Below, one piece after another: positions 25,991 through 30,302 of a stretch of DNA of 64,000 nt (the first letter of the stretch is position 1; each line of letters starts with the position of its first letter). Origin of the DNA: Glycomyces tenuis DSM 44171 (GTDB lineage: Bacteria > Actinomycetota > Actinomycetes > Mycobacteriales > Micromonosporaceae); NCBI RefSeq assembly GCF_000427885.1, contig NZ_ATYW01000003.1:368159-432158 (forward strand), given 5' to 3'. The translations under genes were made by a program, and so were the position numbers. The notes beneath the pieces are model-generated. The model was not told the DNA's origin, ran no database searches, and saw only the letters and a list, made by a program, of their open reading frames with translations.

Positions 25991-26542
25991 CTAGTCGTCC
26001 CCGCTGTCGTCGTCGTCATCGTCGTCATCGCCGCCGCTGGTGTGGATCGAGGACTGCGGCGCGCCGTCGACGCAGGCGATGGTGTACTCGAATTCGCTGG
26101 CGCCCTCGAACTCGATCTCGGCGTCCTCGCCGGGGCCCGGGTCGACCGAGGAGACCTGCCAGCCCTGCGCGGCCACCCACCACATCAGCTCGACCTGTGC
26201 TCCCGAGCACCGCGCCAGGAAGGTGCCGCCGTCGACGGCGAAGACCTCTTCGCCCGTCTCGGCGCCGCCGCTGGGGATCTCGTCGAGCTGGCCGGTCGGT
26301 TCGGGGGACGGGGAGGCCTCCTCGCCGGGCGACTCGCTCGGCGAGGCCTCGGGGGACGGCGTCCCTCCCGCGGAGGAGGAGGCCGTCGCGTCCTCCAGCG
26401 CCGCCTGCACACTCTCCTCGGACACCGGCTCGGTCGGCGGCCCCAGGGTCCCGCCCTGAGCCAGCGCCACCGCGCCGACGCCCGCGGCGACGGCGATCAC
26501 CGCCGCGGCCGCCCAACCGGTCACTACCCACTGTCGTCGCAT
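25991..26542 (-). CDS. Secreted/anchored Ser-Pro-Glu-rich protein with poly-Asp tail
   Basis: A 183-residue protein I do not recognise. Residues 9-29 form a signal or anchor helix, 35-90 a Ser/Pro/Glu/Gly linker (SPEASPSESPGEEASPSPEP), and 95-165 a small folded domain with two Cys (FLARCSGAQVELMWWVAAQGWQVSSVDPG and YTIACVDG) that could form a disulfide. The end is DDDDDDDD-SGDD. It is divergent from the response-regulator gene, and the three-hexamer box lies 24-51 nt upstream of its start in the same orientation as in front of the DUF4956 gene, so it is a likely target of that regulator. Confidence 0.7.
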   Translation of the reverse strand: MRRQWVVTGWAAAAVIAVAAGVGAVALAQGGTLGPPTEPVSEESVQAALEDATASSSAGGTPSPEASPSESPGEEASPSPEPTGQLDEIPSGGAETGEEVFAVDGGTFLARCSGAQVELMWWVAAQGWQVSSVDPGPGEDAEIEFEGASEFEYTIACVDGAPQSSIHTSGGDDDDDDDDSGDD

Positions 26543-26565
26543 GTTCCCAGCTTGCCTCCCACGAC

Positions 26566-26593
26566 GTTAAGAGAAGGATAAGGGCGTTCTAAG
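26566..26593. promoter_or_regulatory. Predicted OmpR-type response-regulator box 1
   Basis: Three direct hexamers, GTTAAG (26566), GATAAG (26577) and TCTAAG (26588), are spaced by exactly 5 nt each, an 11-bp period that puts them on one face of the helix. This is the classical layout for tandem binding of OmpR/PhoB-family dimers. The first two hexamers recur with the same spacing at 30275. The box lies between the secreted-protein gene and the response-regulator gene. Confidence 0.6.
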
Positions 26594-26642
26594 TCCGCGC
26601 CAGATCACCTCCCCGAGGTGGACCGGTGATCCGACGGCGACA

Positions 26643-26648
26643 TAGAGT
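26643..26648 (+). promoter_or_regulatory. Candidate -10 of the two-component operon
   Basis: TAGAGT ends 6 nt before the ATG at 26655, implying a leaderless or nearly leaderless transcript. The three-hexamer box is centred about 75-80 nt upstream of the implied start point. Confidence 0.35.
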
Positions 26649-26654
26649 CCCTGC

Positions 26655-27353
26655 ATGGCTCAGCTGCTCCTGATCGAAGACGACGAGCGCGTCCGCACCA
26701 CCCTGCTGCGGTCCCTGCGCGACCTCGACCACCAGGTCGCCTCCGCGCCCGACGCGATGACCGGGCTGCGCGCCGCGGTCGACCACCGGCCCGACCTGGT
26801 GGTGCTCGACCTCGGCCTGCCCGACCTCGACGGCGGCGAGATGCTGCGGATGCTGCGCGGCGTCTCCGACGTCCCGGTGATCGTCGCCACCGCCCGCGAC
26901 GACGAGAACGAGATCATCCGCATCCTCGGCGCCGGCGCCGACGACTACGTGGTCAAGCCGTTCACCGCCAGGCAGCTCGACGCCCGCATCCAGGCGGTCC
27001 TGCGCCGCGCCGGAGCCGTCGCGCAGGTCGAGGAGACCGTCGTGGTCGGGGGCCTGCGGATCGATCCGAGGGGTCGCTCGGCCCACCTCGACGGCAGGCC
27101 GCTCGAGCTGAGCCCGAAGGAGTTCGACCTGCTGCACTACCTGGCCTCGCGCGCCGGGGAGGTCGTCGCGAAACGGCGACTGCTCACCGACGTGTGGGAC
27201 CTGCCGTTCGGCGGCGCGGACAAGACCGTCGACGTTCACCTCGCGTGGCTGCGCCGCAAACTCGGCGAGACCGCCCAGCGTCCCCGGTTCCTGCACACCG
27301 TGCGCGGCGTCGGCGTCAAACTCGTCGACCCGGCCGAAGGGGACCGGCAGTGA
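26655..27353 (+). CDS. OmpR-family response regulator
   Basis: A 232-residue protein with a canonical receiver: acidic pair at residues 9-10, phospho-acceptor Asp52 in VVLDLGLPDLDGG, Thr/Ser switch in VIVATARDD, and Lys in YVVKPFTARQLDARI. The C-terminal winged helix is LSPKEFDLLHYLASRAGEVVAKRRLLTDVWD...KTVDVHLAWLRRKLGE, ending RFLHTVRGVGVKLV. It overlaps the kinase gene by GTGA, so both are made together. Predicted targets are its own intergenic region and the DUF4956-VTC operon, from the shared box. Confidence 0.95.
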   Translation: MAQLLLIEDDERVRTTLLRSLRDLDHQVASAPDAMTGLRAAVDHRPDLVVLDLGLPDLDGGEMLRMLRGVSDVPVIVATARDDENEIIRILGAGADDYVVKPFTARQLDARIQAVLRRAGAVAQVEETVVVGGLRIDPRGRSAHLDGRPLELSPKEFDLLHYLASRAGEVVAKRRLLTDVWDLPFGGADKTVDVHLAWLRRKLGETAQRPRFLHTVRGVGVKLVDPAEGDRQ

Positions 27354-28624
27354 GGGCCCGACTGACGCTGCTCGTGGCGGCCACCGCCGCTCTCCTCCTG
27401 CTCGCGTTCTCCGTTCCGATGGCGATTCTGCTGCGCAACACCACCGCCGAGCGGACCATCGACATCGCCGAGCAGGAGGCCCAAGACCTCATTCCGTTGA
27501 TCGCGTCCTCCGAGAAGGCGGCCGTGGAGTCGTATGTCGCGAACATGAACGCCTCCAGGGAATACCCGGTCACGGTGTTCTGGCCGGACGGCACGCTCAT
27601 CGGCGACGAGGCGCCGCGCTCGGACGCCGTCGAACTGGCCGCCATGGGCGGCTCGCTGACCGCCGAGGCCCCGGGAGGCAGGGAGATCCTCTTCAGCGTC
27701 CAGGGCCGCCCGGAGGGCACCGCCGTCATCCGGGTCTATGTGGCCGACGGCCAGCTCACGGCCGGGCTCGGCCGCTCGCTCCTGCTGCTCGGCGCGATCG
27801 CCGTGGTCCTGCTGGGCGTCGGGCTGCTCCTGGCCTCGCGCCTGGCGCGCGTGCTGCTGGTGCCGCTGGCCGACATGGCCGCCGTCTCGAACCGCCTCGC
27901 GGGCGGCGATCTGGAGGCCAGGGCCGCCGTCGACGGCCCGCCCGAGGTGCGGAACGTCGGCACCGCGCTCAACACGCTCGCCGACCGCATCAGGGACCTC
28001 CTCGAAGCCGAACGCGAACGCGTCGCCGACCTCTCGCACCGGCTGCGCACCCCGCTGACGGTGCTGCGGCTCGAGGCCGAGGCACTAGCGAACCCGGCCG
28101 AGCGCGAGACCGTCGACGAGGCCGTCGGCGAGGTGGAGCGCGCCGTCAACGCCGCGATCCGCGACGCCCGCAACCCCGGCCCCTCGGGGGCCGTGTGCGA
28201 CGCCGCGGCCGTGGTGGCCGAGCGGGTCGAGTTCTGGTCGGCACTGGCCGAGGACACCGCCCGCGAATGCCGCGTCCACCTGGCGCCCGGGCCGCTGCAG
28301 GTCCGGCTCTCGGGCGAGGAGCTGGCGGCGGCGATGGACTCGCTGCTCGCGAACGTCTTCGCCCACACTCCGGACGGGACCGCGTTCGAGGTGCGGCTGA
28401 GCCCGCGGCACGGCGGCGGGGCCGTCGTCGACGTGGTCGACGAGGGCCCCGGGCTGTCGGATCCGGCGGTGTTCGAGCGCGGCCGCAGCGAGGGCGGTTC
28501 GACCGGTCTGGGTCTCGACATCGCCCGCCGCGCGGCCGCGGCCTCGGGCGGCCAGATCTTCTTCGGCCAAGGCCCGGGAGGCGTCGGAGCCCTCATCCGC
28601 CTTGAGCTAGGGGGTGCCCTGTGA
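27350..28624 (+). CDS. Sensor histidine kinase
   Basis: A 424-residue membrane kinase: TM1 (about 5-27), a ~110-residue extracytoplasmic sensor domain without recognisable family, TM2 (about 143-163, LLLLGAIAVVLLGVGLLLASRL), HAMP (VPLADMAAVSNRLAGGDLEARA), HisKA with the phospho-acceptor His230 in DLSHRLRTPLTVLRLE (HRLRTP, not the usual HELRTP), N box LLANVFAHTPDGT, and G boxes VVDEGPGLSD and STGLGLDIARRAAAASGG. The stop codon lies inside the left arm of a foldback repeat; the last residues GGAL are encoded by it and match the end of the convergent VTC protein. Confidence 0.94.
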   Translation: MRARLTLLVAATAALLLLAFSVPMAILLRNTTAERTIDIAEQEAQDLIPLIASSEKAAVESYVANMNASREYPVTVFWPDGTLIGDEAPRSDAVELAAMGGSLTAEAPGGREILFSVQGRPEGTAVIRVYVADGQLTAGLGRSLLLLGAIAVVLLGVGLLLASRLARVLLVPLADMAAVSNRLAGGDLEARAAVDGPPEVRNVGTALNTLADRIRDLLEAERERVADLSHRLRTPLTVLRLEAEALANPAERETVDEAVGEVERAVNAAIRDARNPGPSGAVCDAAAVVAERVEFWSALAEDTARECRVHLAPGPLQVRLSGEELAAAMDSLLANVFAHTPDGTAFEVRLSPRHGGGAVVDVVDEGPGLSDPAVFERGRSEGGSTGLGLDIARRAAAASGGQIFFGQGPGGVGALIRLELGGAL

Positions 28625-28858
28625 ATCAGACCGGGCGTTATCCGGCCCGTTCGGCCCGCCCGTCGCCCACCGCCACCCGACATCGTGCTCGCTGCGCTCG
28701 CTCTGAAGGGAAGGCTGCGTTGTCGGGGCGACCAGATCCAACACCGGGATCTGGGCGCCCCTCCGCCCTCGTGGCGACGCTTGCGAGCCATACCTTGGCA
28801 CTGCGAGCGAACAAACGGACTCGGATACCACCTCGCCCTGATTCACAGGGCACCCCCT
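28609..28858. repeat. 250-bp nested foldback element between convergent genes
   Basis: Perfect 21-bp terminal inverted repeats (28609-28629 and 28838-28858), continuing imperfectly inward (TATCCG in both arms), plus a near-concentric central hairpin with 15-bp arms and one mismatch (28725-28739 with 28747-28761). The left arm contains the kinase stop codon and the right arm the VTC stop codon; both proteins end GGAL. The element also holds a 22-nt core related to the thrC/recG insert (28657-28680) and one conserved-loop stem-loop (28772-28790). It has no coding capacity I can support; it looks like a MITE-like or terminator element. Confidence 0.7.
28772..28790 (+). repeat. Conserved-loop stem-loop, copy 3
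   Basis: Stem TGGC/GCCA closing the 11-nt loop GACGCTTGCGA; a flanking G-T wobble can extend it. It lies inside the foldback element. Confidence 0.5.
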
Positions 28859-29619
28859 GGGCTCACCGGACCGAACCACTCCCTGATCTCGCGGGTCCAC
28901 GGGTTCGCGCGCAGCCACGGGAAGAGCACCGCCGCCGCCATGCAGTACTTGCTGACCGACACGGGCCGCGCCCCCAGCTCCCACAGCAGCCGGTCGACCG
29001 GGCCGCCGCCGCGCGCCGCCTTGACCTCCACGAGGCACAGCCGCCGCGCCGCGGCCGTTCCGGTCGCGGCGGTGCAGCTCAGGTCCTCGTCGACGGTGAC
29101 GCGGGTCGCCAGGCCGAGGTTCACCAGCGTGTGCCGCCGGTAGTCGGTGCGCAGCCGCGGGGCCATGCCCGCGGGCACGCCCGTCCCGTAGGCGGACCGG
29201 AGCGTCTCGGCCAGGAAGCCGGCGGCCTCCCCGGTGAGGCGCCCGGCGTCGGCCGCCGGGTAGGGGATCCGCTGCTTGACGGTGTTCTGGCGCGAGCCCT
29301 TGAGCTTGACTTCGAAGGCGCATTCGCCGGAGTCGGCGTAGGTCCGCGAGCGGACCTTGAACCGGCGCCTGCGGCCCTGACGGTGCTGCCGGTACGTCAA
29401 CAGGTCCGGGGTGTCGAAGTAGACCGACTCGTAGGCGAAGCGGCGCCGCCGGTCGATCTCCAGGCACGACCAGCCCCCGGCCTCGGCCAGGCGCTCGCGG
29501 AAGCGCCGGCAGACGGCGGGCGCGAGGAGGTACTTGGAGTCGACGCGGGTCTGGAGCGCCGCGGCGTCCACGACGGCCGCGAGGCCGATCGGCGCGAAGG
29601 CTTCGAGCCCGGTGTCCAT
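28843..29619 (-). CDS. VTC-domain (polyphosphate polymerase-like) protein
   Basis: A 258-residue protein of the VTC/CYTH-like tunnel fold. It has an alternating basic/acidic pattern: DSKYLLAPAVCRRF, FAYESVYFDTPDLLTYRQHRQGRRRRFKVRSRTY, CAFEVKLKGSRQNTVKQRIPY, LRTDYRRHTLVNL, RVTVDEDLS, LCLVEVKA, VSVSKYCMA. The Lys/Arg-rich strands and Glu/Asp metal ligands match the VTC4 catalytic domain, which in yeast makes polyphosphate from ATP; bacterial activity is inferred. ATG at 29619. DUF4956 and VTC genes are a recurrent pair in bacteria, often with a CotH kinase, which is absent here. Confidence 0.85.
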   Translation of the reverse strand: MDTGLEAFAPIGLAAVVDAAALQTRVDSKYLLAPAVCRRFRERLAEAGGWSCLEIDRRRRFAYESVYFDTPDLLTYRQHRQGRRRRFKVRSRTYADSGECAFEVKLKGSRQNTVKQRIPYPAADAGRLTGEAAGFLAETLRSAYGTGVPAGMAPRLRTDYRRHTLVNLGLATRVTVDEDLSCTAATGTAAARRLCLVEVKAARGGGPVDRLLWELGARPVSVSKYCMAAAVLFPWLRANPWTREIREWFGPVSPGGAL

Positions 29620-30218
29620 CAGATCCTCCCGACCGGCACGGTGCGGTCGGCGGGCGAGGCGACGGGCGCGGGCAGCGGCCGGTAGCGCACGTCGACGGTC
29701 ATGGTCTCGCGCACGTAGTCGGTGTCGACGACCTCGAACTTCCGGACCTCGGCGTCCAGGCGCCGCTCCAGGTCGGCCGCGAGCGCCGCCTCGCCGCGGT
29801 GGACGGTGTCGAGGATGACGATCCGGTGCCTGGACCGGTTCGCCAGGCGCGGATGGTCGGCGACGTACATGGTGGCGATGAGCAGGACGCTCAGCGAGAT
29901 CATGGCCGTCGGCCGCGAGGCCCCGATCCCGTTGATGAGGCCCAGCGCCAGGGCCGTGAAGTAGTAGCCGACGTCGCGCTGGGAGATCTGGTCGGAGCGC
30001 AGCCGCAGGATCGACAGGACGCCGAACAGGCCGAACGCCAGCCCGAGGCTGACCTGCTGGGAGAGCATGAGCGCCGAGACGGCGAAGACGCCGACGTTCA
30101 GGGCGACATAGGCCAGCGCCAGGTCCGTGCGGTGGTGGCGGCGGTAGTAGATCGCGCACGCCAGCACGGTGATCGCGAACAGGTTGACGGGCAAGGCGAG
30201 TGCGAGCGCGAGACTCAC
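29619..30218 (-). CDS. DUF4956 membrane protein
   Basis: A 199-residue protein with about four N-terminal helices (residues 3-22, 33-52, 55-75 and about 88-118), with the family motif GFGVLSILRLRSDQISQRDVGYYFTALALGLING (here GLFGVLSILRLRS), then a ~75-residue cytoplasmic ferredoxin-like domain (RHRIVILDTVHRGEAALAADLERRL). The GTG start follows AGGAGGA. Its stop overlaps the VTC start by one base (TGATG), so the pair probably forms a membrane complex, perhaps exporting or anchoring the polymer. A three-hexamer regulator box lies 57-84 nt upstream. Confidence 0.85.
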   Translation of the reverse strand: MSLALALALPVNLFAITVLACAIYYRRHHRTDLALAYVALNVGVFAVSALMLSQQVSLGLAFGLFGVLSILRLRSDQISQRDVGYYFTALALGLINGIGASRPTAMISLSVLLIATMYVADHPRLANRSRHRIVILDTVHRGEAALAADLERRLDAEVRKFEVVDTDYVRETMTVDVRYRPLPAPVASPADRTVPVGRI

Positions 30219-30274
30219 GGCGTTCCTCCTCGGGGTACGTGGATGTGCTTGAGGAAGAACGTAAGTCGGCGGCC

Positions 30275-30302
30275 GTTAAGGAACCGATAAGCCGTGAATA
30301 AA
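30275..30302. promoter_or_regulatory. Predicted OmpR-type response-regulator box 2
   Basis: GTTAAG (30275), GATAAG (30286) and AATAAA (30297), again with an exact 11-bp period. The first two hexamers are identical to box 1 at 26566. Relative to the downstream gene (DUF4956) it has the same orientation as box 1 has to the secreted-protein gene. Confidence 0.6.

Follow-up and report, generated by a model that had tools for sequence, protein, structure and literature searches.

Why should the gene for a secreted protein and an operon for a putative polyphosphate polymerase, lying on either side of a two-component system, be preceded by the same array of short repeats? This question is raised by a 64,000-nucleotide stretch of the Glycomyces tenuis DSM 44171 genome (contig NZ_ATYW01000003.1, positions 368,159 to 432,158), here referred to as the window. 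Within it, genes for an OmpR-family response regulator (26655 to 27353, plus strand) and a sensor histidine kinase (27350 to 28624, plus strand) are flanked by two minus-strand units: the gene for a secreted or membrane-anchored Asp-rich protein (25991 to 26542; here referred to as SEC) and an operon encoding a DUF4956 membrane protein (29619 to 30218) and a VTC-domain protein, the putative polyphosphate polymerase (28843 to 29622). From the evidence below, the locus is quite probably a small two-component regulon, in which the regulator would activate SEC, the DUF4956-VTC operon, and an unlinked paralogue of SEC.

The original prediction started from two sets of direct hexamer repeats, and reading the sequence directly bore out their phase, identity, and orientation. 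The first set comprises GTTAAG at 26566, GATAAG at 26577, and TCTAAG at 26588, and the second comprises GTTAAG at 30275, GATAAG at 30286, and AATAAA at 30297. Both advance in exact 11-bp steps, their first two hexamers are identical, and they have the same orientation relative to SEC and DUF4956. Functionally, the boxes read on the minus strand, toward these two genes, where operator 1 (26566 to 26593) becomes CTTAGA-N5-CTTATC-N5-CTTAAC and operator 2 (30275 to 30302) becomes TTTATT-N5-CTTATC-N5-CTTAAC; the third hexamer of each set is a conserved but looser half-site. With up to one mismatch allowed, GTTAAG-N5-GATAAG matched twice in the window, compared to 0.00 matches expected from 100 shuffles. 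In the whole genome (5.74 Mb in 44 contigs), the only two exact copies were those at the locus, and the reversed control gave none; approximately 0.03 copies would be expected from the base composition of the window. Chance or a duplicated promoter segment might be suspected from the fact that only ~28 bp is common to the two boxes, but this rarity, the differing spacers and flanks, and the retention of the array upstream of DUF4956, both in Glycomyces (11 of 11) and elsewhere (see below), make such an origin extremely improbable.

The original prediction had also pointed to relatives, and conservation was found there. The regulator is present in 12 of 22 Glycomyces genomes (G. tenuis itself and 11 others at 87 to 91% identity; E ≤ 1e-60), and matches at the same threshold occur in 58 of 101 genomes. 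All 12 regulator-bearing Glycomyces genomes contain the exact operator pattern, nine of them twice and three once, compared to none of the ten genomes without the regulator (Fisher's exact test, 1.5e-6, with shared ancestry ignored). The operator precedes SEC in 12 of 12 genomes and, when one-letter variants are included, DUF4956 in all 11 that have an adjacent DUF4956-VTC pair. Two of the genomes with a single exact match (G013 and G014) owe this to a one-letter variant, CTTAGC, before DUF4956; the third (G015) lacks VTC and DUF4956 at the locus and therefore has a single box there. Consistent with this, VTC matches of the kind found in the window (type 1; 67 to 100% identity, E ≤ 1e-10) occur in 11 regulator-bearing Glycomyces genomes, all except G015, and the matches at 43 to 47% identity, including those of G003 and G015, belong to a second type. 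Across 61 genomes, the exact pattern gave 22 matches, 21 of them at this locus, compared to 1 for the reversed control. The single match outside the genus (G031) was taken as chance, as it lies away from the regulator match and no query protein was found around it.

The spacing between the arrays and the start of transcription is equally regular. In 12 of 12 Glycomyces genomes, the SEC promoter consists of CTTA-type half-sites spaced at 11-bp steps, the last being CTTAAC, followed after exactly 11 bp by CAnnCT and, 6 to 7 nt later, by the ATG. The DUF4956 promoters of the 11 Glycomyces genomes and of genome G034 likewise have an array ending in CTTAAC, then 11 bp, then TACGTT, TACGGT, TACCTT, or TAGCGT (TAnnnT in 12 of 12), such that the 11-bp distance from box to -10 is the same in both promoters. 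In the window, the -10-like hexamers are CAAGCT for SEC (26549 to 26554, minus strand; 11 bp from operator 1 and 6 nt before the ATG, so that the SEC transcript is probably leaderless) and TACGTT for the DUF4956-VTC operon (30258 to 30263, minus strand; 11 bp from operator 2). The array thus occupies positions of approximately -24 to -51, in place of a -35 element, and no recognisable -35 is present. Three in-phase half-sites at a fixed distance from the -10 are the layout of OmpR/PhoB-type activators, as in the pho box of Escherichia coli. We favor activation over repression on account of this layout.

We propose that the kinase would phosphorylate the regulator, which would then bind head to tail to the three half-sites (CTTAGA or TTTATT, CTTATC, and CTTAAC). 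From 11 bp upstream of the -10, where it takes the place of a -35 element, the bound array would activate the SEC promoter, the DUF4956-VTC promoter, and that of the unlinked SEC paralogue. The same regulator could instead repress these targets, excluding RNA polymerase from -24 to -51 until a signal arrives. The constant 11 bp to the -10, the absence of a recognisable -35, and the three in-phase half-sites all argue for the activator layout, and the spacing is equally fixed in a second class of arrays described below (31 of 33 loci); we therefore consider repression rather unlikely, even though the boxes overlap the -35 region and CutR sites near the start in Streptomyces (-17, -21, and -28) have been classed as repression (PMC12802291; here and below, statements with a PMC number go by excerpts of those papers). 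SEC and the regulator are divergent in 12 of 12 Glycomyces loci. Operator 1 lies ~62 to 90 bp upstream of the regulator start, which makes autoregulation through it possible; a -10-like TAGAGT for the regulator-kinase operon can be read at 26643 to 26648 (plus strand), 6 nt before the ATG.

A third promoter provides independent support for the link between regulator and operator. In a blind scan, the relaxed pattern YTTADS-N5-YTTADS-N12-ANNNT gave 29 matches in the 22 Glycomyces genomes, 23 at the locus and 6 elsewhere; the ten genomes lacking the regulator gave none, compared to three of the six matches of the reversed control. Three of the off-locus matches (in G000, G015, and G020) precede one and the same gene, a paralogue of SEC that lies on another contig in the G. 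tenuis genome. Its operator reads GTTAGA-N5-CTTAGC-N5-CTTAGG or similar, followed by N11 and GACGCT or GATGCT. In a single BLASTP comparison, the paralogue was 33% identical to SEC (2e-19). It is present in exactly 3 of the 22 genomes, those with the operator, and the other search matches were SEC itself. The paralogues (L220, at G000:C35; L221; and L222) have long Asp-rich runs, which are rich in Asp and His in L222 (G020), and the protein is possibly metal binding.

The recognition helix of the regulator points in the same direction. The sequence ADKT[VI]DVH[LIV][AS]WLRRKLGE occurs in every one of the 31 relatives aligned with the regulator, an almost invariant helix going with a constant operator word. 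A different helix, approximately GSN[VI]VDV[FY][VI]R, is found in the regulators that neighbor other DUF4956 loci (11 aligned), and the regulators of two further module types in the G. tenuis genome (types 2 and 3, below) differ as well. Among 31 regulator loci tested, a SEC-type operator (half-site, 11 bp, NAnnnT, 5 to 8 nt, start codon) was found in 25, including the 12 from Glycomyces, compared to 69 of 3,000 random regions. At 15 loci of other genera (L096 to L110), the regulator is 64 to 72% identical. None of these 15 fetched stretches contains a VTC or DUF4956 match, and 10 contain a SEC match (tblastn, 1e-6), which is not adjacent in L100. Since regulators of other genera mostly keep the SEC operator without an adjacent VTC/DUF4956 pair, the SEC operator is probably the older one and the DUF4956-VTC target would have been recruited later, as judged from distribution rather than from a tree. 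Allosalinactinospora lopnorensis (L135) and G034 likewise have a DUF4956-VTC locus in which both operators are present, with the last two words of the SEC array in swapped order in G034, and a metagenome-assembled genome (L136) contains the DUF4956-VTC-kinase-regulator part with the DUF4956 operator.

Several related observations stand by themselves. In Streptomyces monomycini (L180), a regulator with 66% identity is encoded near a DUF4956-VTC pair, and GTTAAC-N11-TAGCGT precedes DUF4956; this is possibly an independent or degenerate case. Upstream of the DUF4956 gene of L054 (G073), on a contig that differs from that of the regulator, we observed CTTAGT-N5-CTTAGA-N16-CTTAGA in reverse orientation, an array laid out like the SEC operators found in other genera. 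A search of a plasmid collection for the regulator returned one Nonomuraea record, which was not used.

We next considered whether the boxes might be bound by an OmpR-family regulator encoded elsewhere, with the adjacent pair a bystander. Members of this family can share similar words, and a loose search with the regulator found 68 candidate places in the G. tenuis genome. Against this, boxes and adjacent regulator come and go together in the 22 Glycomyces genomes, the operator is found again between SEC and the regulator in other genera, and the helix is nearly invariant in the 31 relatives. We regard a distant binder as improbable and infer that the adjacent regulator binds the boxes directly. 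The claim of the original prediction that the sensor pair controls both SEC and VTC/DUF4956 is accordingly favored by the outcome of two of its own refuting conditions, as the genome has no additional exact copies and the boxes are conserved in relatives, and further by the paralogue operator and the nearly constant recognition helix.

Some observations weigh against this reading. The boxes could also be bound by a different OmpR-type regulator whose helix is similar, and the -10 hexamers match only a loose consensus. The genomes are not phylogenetically independent, which makes the counts weaker than their P values suggest. The SEC-operator pattern was missed in six of the 31 regulator loci (L098, L100, L106, L108, L109, and L136, the last of which has no upstream sequence), and the match in L180 does not lie ahead of the start that was predicted for SEC at this locus. 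Three of the six off-locus matches to the relaxed pattern lie at neither the locus nor the paralogue and were taken as background, and with six matches in the reversed control, single relaxed matches mean little alone.

We also compared the system with described ones. Of 94 NCBIfam models matched, 25 were listed, and the regulator scored far below the cut-off of each, PmrA, CseB, PhoB, and QseB among them. It reached 142.6 bits against a cut-off of 330 for the PmrA equivalog (NF007928) and fell below every cut-off of the CseB, MtrA, PhoB, QseB, and PhoP equivalogs, the best being CseB at 175.2 against 350. The PmrA/BasR box is HTTAAD-N5-HTTAAD (YTTAAK in Salmonella), and PmrAB resembles the present system in its hexamer direct repeats, 5-bp gap (11-bp period), TTA core, and OmpR/PhoB-family regulator (PMC10927774). 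However, the Glycomyces operator has three half-sites with CTTATC or CTTAGC as the middle word, has other targets, and is actinobacterial, and its regulator does not reach the PmrA cut-off. The PHO box of actinobacterial PhoP likewise consists of 11-nt head-to-tail direct repeats (GTTCACC in S. coelicolor) that control phosphate genes, and ppk is among the genes that most bacteria induce (PMC4415409). The type-1 boxes have another word, and a PHO box was rejected as their origin: within 250 bp upstream, the best match to GTTCAYC-N4-GTTCAYC at the G. tenuis promoter has 5 mismatches. Several other Glycomyces genomes have a PHO-like repeat just upstream. CutRS of Streptomyces is also an actinobacterial two-component system with mapped operators, with targets including htrA3 and htrB; its motif, TAWATAAA, is unlike the boxes, and CutR was rejected as an operator model (PMC12802291). 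Judged by title and the start of the abstract, the open-licence PMC papers searched yielded no description of a two-component system controlling VTC/DUF4956.

Is such wiring peculiar to Glycomyces? We collected the stretches around the best 80 of at least 569 confirmed DUF4956 matches; all but one of the 80 are actinobacterial by title, and the fractions given here apply to this sample alone. Neighbors were identified with tblastn (1e-8); some stretches are short, such that regulators may be missed, and one kinase query (HK3) came from approximate coordinates. An OmpR-type regulator was found in 52 of the 80 stretches, within 3.5 kb in 49. It is directly upstream and co-directional in 33 loci, convergent in 12, elsewhere in 7, and not found in 28. 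Linkage to an OmpR-type regulator is thus common among the sampled VTC/DUF4956 loci and not peculiar to the G. tenuis locus. Period-11 repeats upstream of DUF4956 (score ≥14) were present in 36 of 80 loci, compared to 7 of 240 same-locus windows, and other periods from 7 to 15 reached at most 11 of 80; the random control windows of this and of the CTCA and PHO tests below are mostly coding DNA, and the mostly coding controls peak at 9, 12, and 15. The period also appears at loci with no regulator match (mean score of 12.9, versus 13.3), indicating that proximity of a regulator is not required.

The 33 co-directional loci share the word CTCA, with 32 of them scoring at least 10 of 12, compared to 7 of 500 control regions; the word was read from these loci before scoring, and many are close relatives, so these counts are not independent. 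In 31 of the 33, the distance from the beginning of the last CTCA to NAnnnT is exactly 15 nt. Hosts of this class are Nocardiopsis, Nonomuraea and relatives, Amycolatopsis, Arthrobacter, and one record titled Glycomyces fuscus (L151), whose locus is Nocardiopsis-like and unlike other Glycomyces loci, and whose label may merit a second look. In 22 of the 33 loci (L141 to L199), GATGA stands just before the CTCA array and is perhaps an inverted fourth half-site.

The G. tenuis genome itself contains two further VTC/DUF4956 modules. Type 2 (L111, at G000:C11:65000-77000; also L113 and L114) has a convergent OmpR-type regulator, which in G000:C11 has no kinase beside it in the list of open reading frames (ORFs), and an 11-bp CTATGG/CATAGG array before DUF4956. 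A CotH-like gene is divergent from the type-2 DUF4956-VTC pair in L111 and in L194, apparently the contig of L114. Type 3 (L112, at G000:C9:91000-102000) is a VTC-DUF4956-CotH-regulator-kinase cluster, in which VTC is preceded by a PHO box (1 mismatch). A CotH gene therefore lies beside both modules, identified by Pfam in one and by ORF reading in the other. Allowing up to one mismatch, the PHO-box pattern matched 12 times in the genome and not at all in the control. Six of the 12 are just upstream of ppk1, two ABC ATPases, a phosphate-type binding protein, a DUF47 protein, and the type-3 VTC; the ATPases and binding protein match Pfam ABC_tran and PBP_like_2, and we read them as pstB and pstS. 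No phosphate gene was recognised near the other six. PHO-like repeats (≤2 mismatches) precede 14 of the 80 DUF4956 genes, compared to 6 of 800 random windows; these include Streptomyces promoters and several Glycomyces type-1 promoters, that of G. tenuis not among them. The CTCA-type words look similar to the PHO word and may account for some of the 14. Through its PHO box, the type-3 module ties at least one VTC/DUF4956 gene group to phosphate.

At the locus, the gene identities given in the original prediction were upheld by Pfam, with which eight proteins around the boxes were tested; the remaining ORFs are known from the ORF list. The regulator contains Response_reg and Trans_reg_C domains (PF00072, 85.9 bits; PF00486, 82.9 bits), both above the curated cut-off and typical of OmpR/PhoB architecture, and the kinase contains HAMP, HisKA, and HATPase_c. 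The VTC protein, which has conserved basic residues, scored 86.8 bits with PF09359 (2.1e-24), compared to a curated cut-off of 23, and is thus assigned to the VTC domain family. Its partner matched PF16316 (4.8e-58). The Pfam set also includes a glycosyltransferase gene upstream of the DUF4956-VTC pair. Between the kinase and VTC genes, both of which terminate within its ends, lies a ~248-bp repeat (28610 to 28857) resembling a miniature inverted-repeat transposable element, with 20-bp perfect terminal inverted repeats (GGGGGTGCCCTGTGAATCAG); BLAST found 33 matching pieces genome-wide, ten of them of at least 145 bp, including this copy.

SEC, which the original prediction described as a secreted protein with a poly-Asp tail, is indeed Asp rich and has an N-terminal hydrophobic segment, followed by a Pro/Ser linker and a beta domain (residues 98 to 168); the tail itself is not constant, as it is absent in L131 and other SEC proteins have Asp runs within the domain. 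SEC matched no family in Pfam or NCBIfam. The alignment shows two conserved Cys residues in the beta domain, and the AlphaFold model, built from 11 sequences, has a predicted local distance difference test (pLDDT) score of ~95 over the domain. The best Foldseek E value was 0.24, and the best VIA-align Z score, 5.3, is within the range of unrelated folds.

What would this regulon make? The VTC profile matched yeast Vtc4 chains (best, 3g3q at 7.5e-5), and R, K, and E columns are invariant in 19 VTC sequences, 18 of them from fetched loci; the last stretch of the Vtc4 alignment (E-K, SK) is not significant by itself. We take the invariant positions to be the tunnel residues of Vtc4. As in the yeast VTC complex, the VTC domain has aligned basic residues and its gene is coupled to one for a small membrane protein; here, in contrast, Pfam finds no SPX domain, the partner is DUF4956, and polymerase activity is putative. 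The DUF4956 model has five long helices and a C-terminal alpha/beta domain (pLDDT, 77; best Foldseek E value, 0.11). Comparison of DUF4956 with MgtC gave no clear relationship: the type-3 protein of G. tenuis scored 27.4 bits, below the 31.4 cut-off, the type-3 proteins of relatives were below it save one just at the cut-off, and the type-1 DUF4956 profile matched the MgtC profile with a probability of 0.03 on a scale of 0 to 100. The DUF4956 alignment comprises 43 sequences, one from the window and the others from 42 of the 80 loci. No function for DUF4956 or bacterial VTC proteins was found in the open-licence PMC papers, as far as their excerpts go.

Because the basic residues of VTC align with yeast Vtc4, membrane-coupled polyphosphate is the likeliest output. 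We tentatively suggest, at somewhat less than even odds, that polyphosphate or a similar polyanion would be synthesized at the membrane and perhaps exported, and would act with an acidic, possibly cation-binding surface protein in an envelope response to cation or phosphate stress; that ppk1 is also present in the genome speaks against this. With the regulation unchanged, VTC/DUF4956 might equally plausibly act on an exopolysaccharide or a protein, as CotH-associated modules may. CotH, a polyphosphate polymerase-like protein, and DUF4956, with DUF4832, are accessory genes of Gram-positive Pel clusters, which, like the type-1 loci, group a VTC-type protein with DUF4956 (PMC7112168); CotH beside the two other modules and the glycosyltransferase gene upstream of the type-1 pair fit this alternative. 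The Vtc4-like residues and the PHO box that the type-3 module shares with ppk1 and the pst-like genes argue against it. The type-1 loci also differ in their two-component operator and in that no CotH was found in eight of them by tblastn with two queries (seven named Glycomyces and the metagenome-assembled genome L131), nor at the G. tenuis locus by the ORF list and the eight Pfam-tested proteins only. Those eight proteins are not of the Pel kind, with no search aimed at pel genes.

More speculatively, and rather doubtfully as a whole, VTC-DUF4956 may be a membrane-coupled polyphosphate polymerase/translocase separate from PPK, which actinobacteria would build on demand, several lineages having an OmpR-family regulator and an 11-bp-phased operator of their own (CTTA, CTCA, CTATGG/CATAGG, or PHO) and the two best-sampled classes keeping an invariable spacing to the -10. 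The Glycomyces module would have been captured by an older sensor system that originally served a surface protein rich in Asp and possibly cation binding, the outcome being a joint envelope response based on polyanions. With the regulator, its precise operator, and a regulon this small, there is a direct experimental handle on the product of VTC-DUF4956, and with an OmpR-type regulator in 52 of 80 loci and the recurrent 11-bp period, the question of what that product is becomes a general one.

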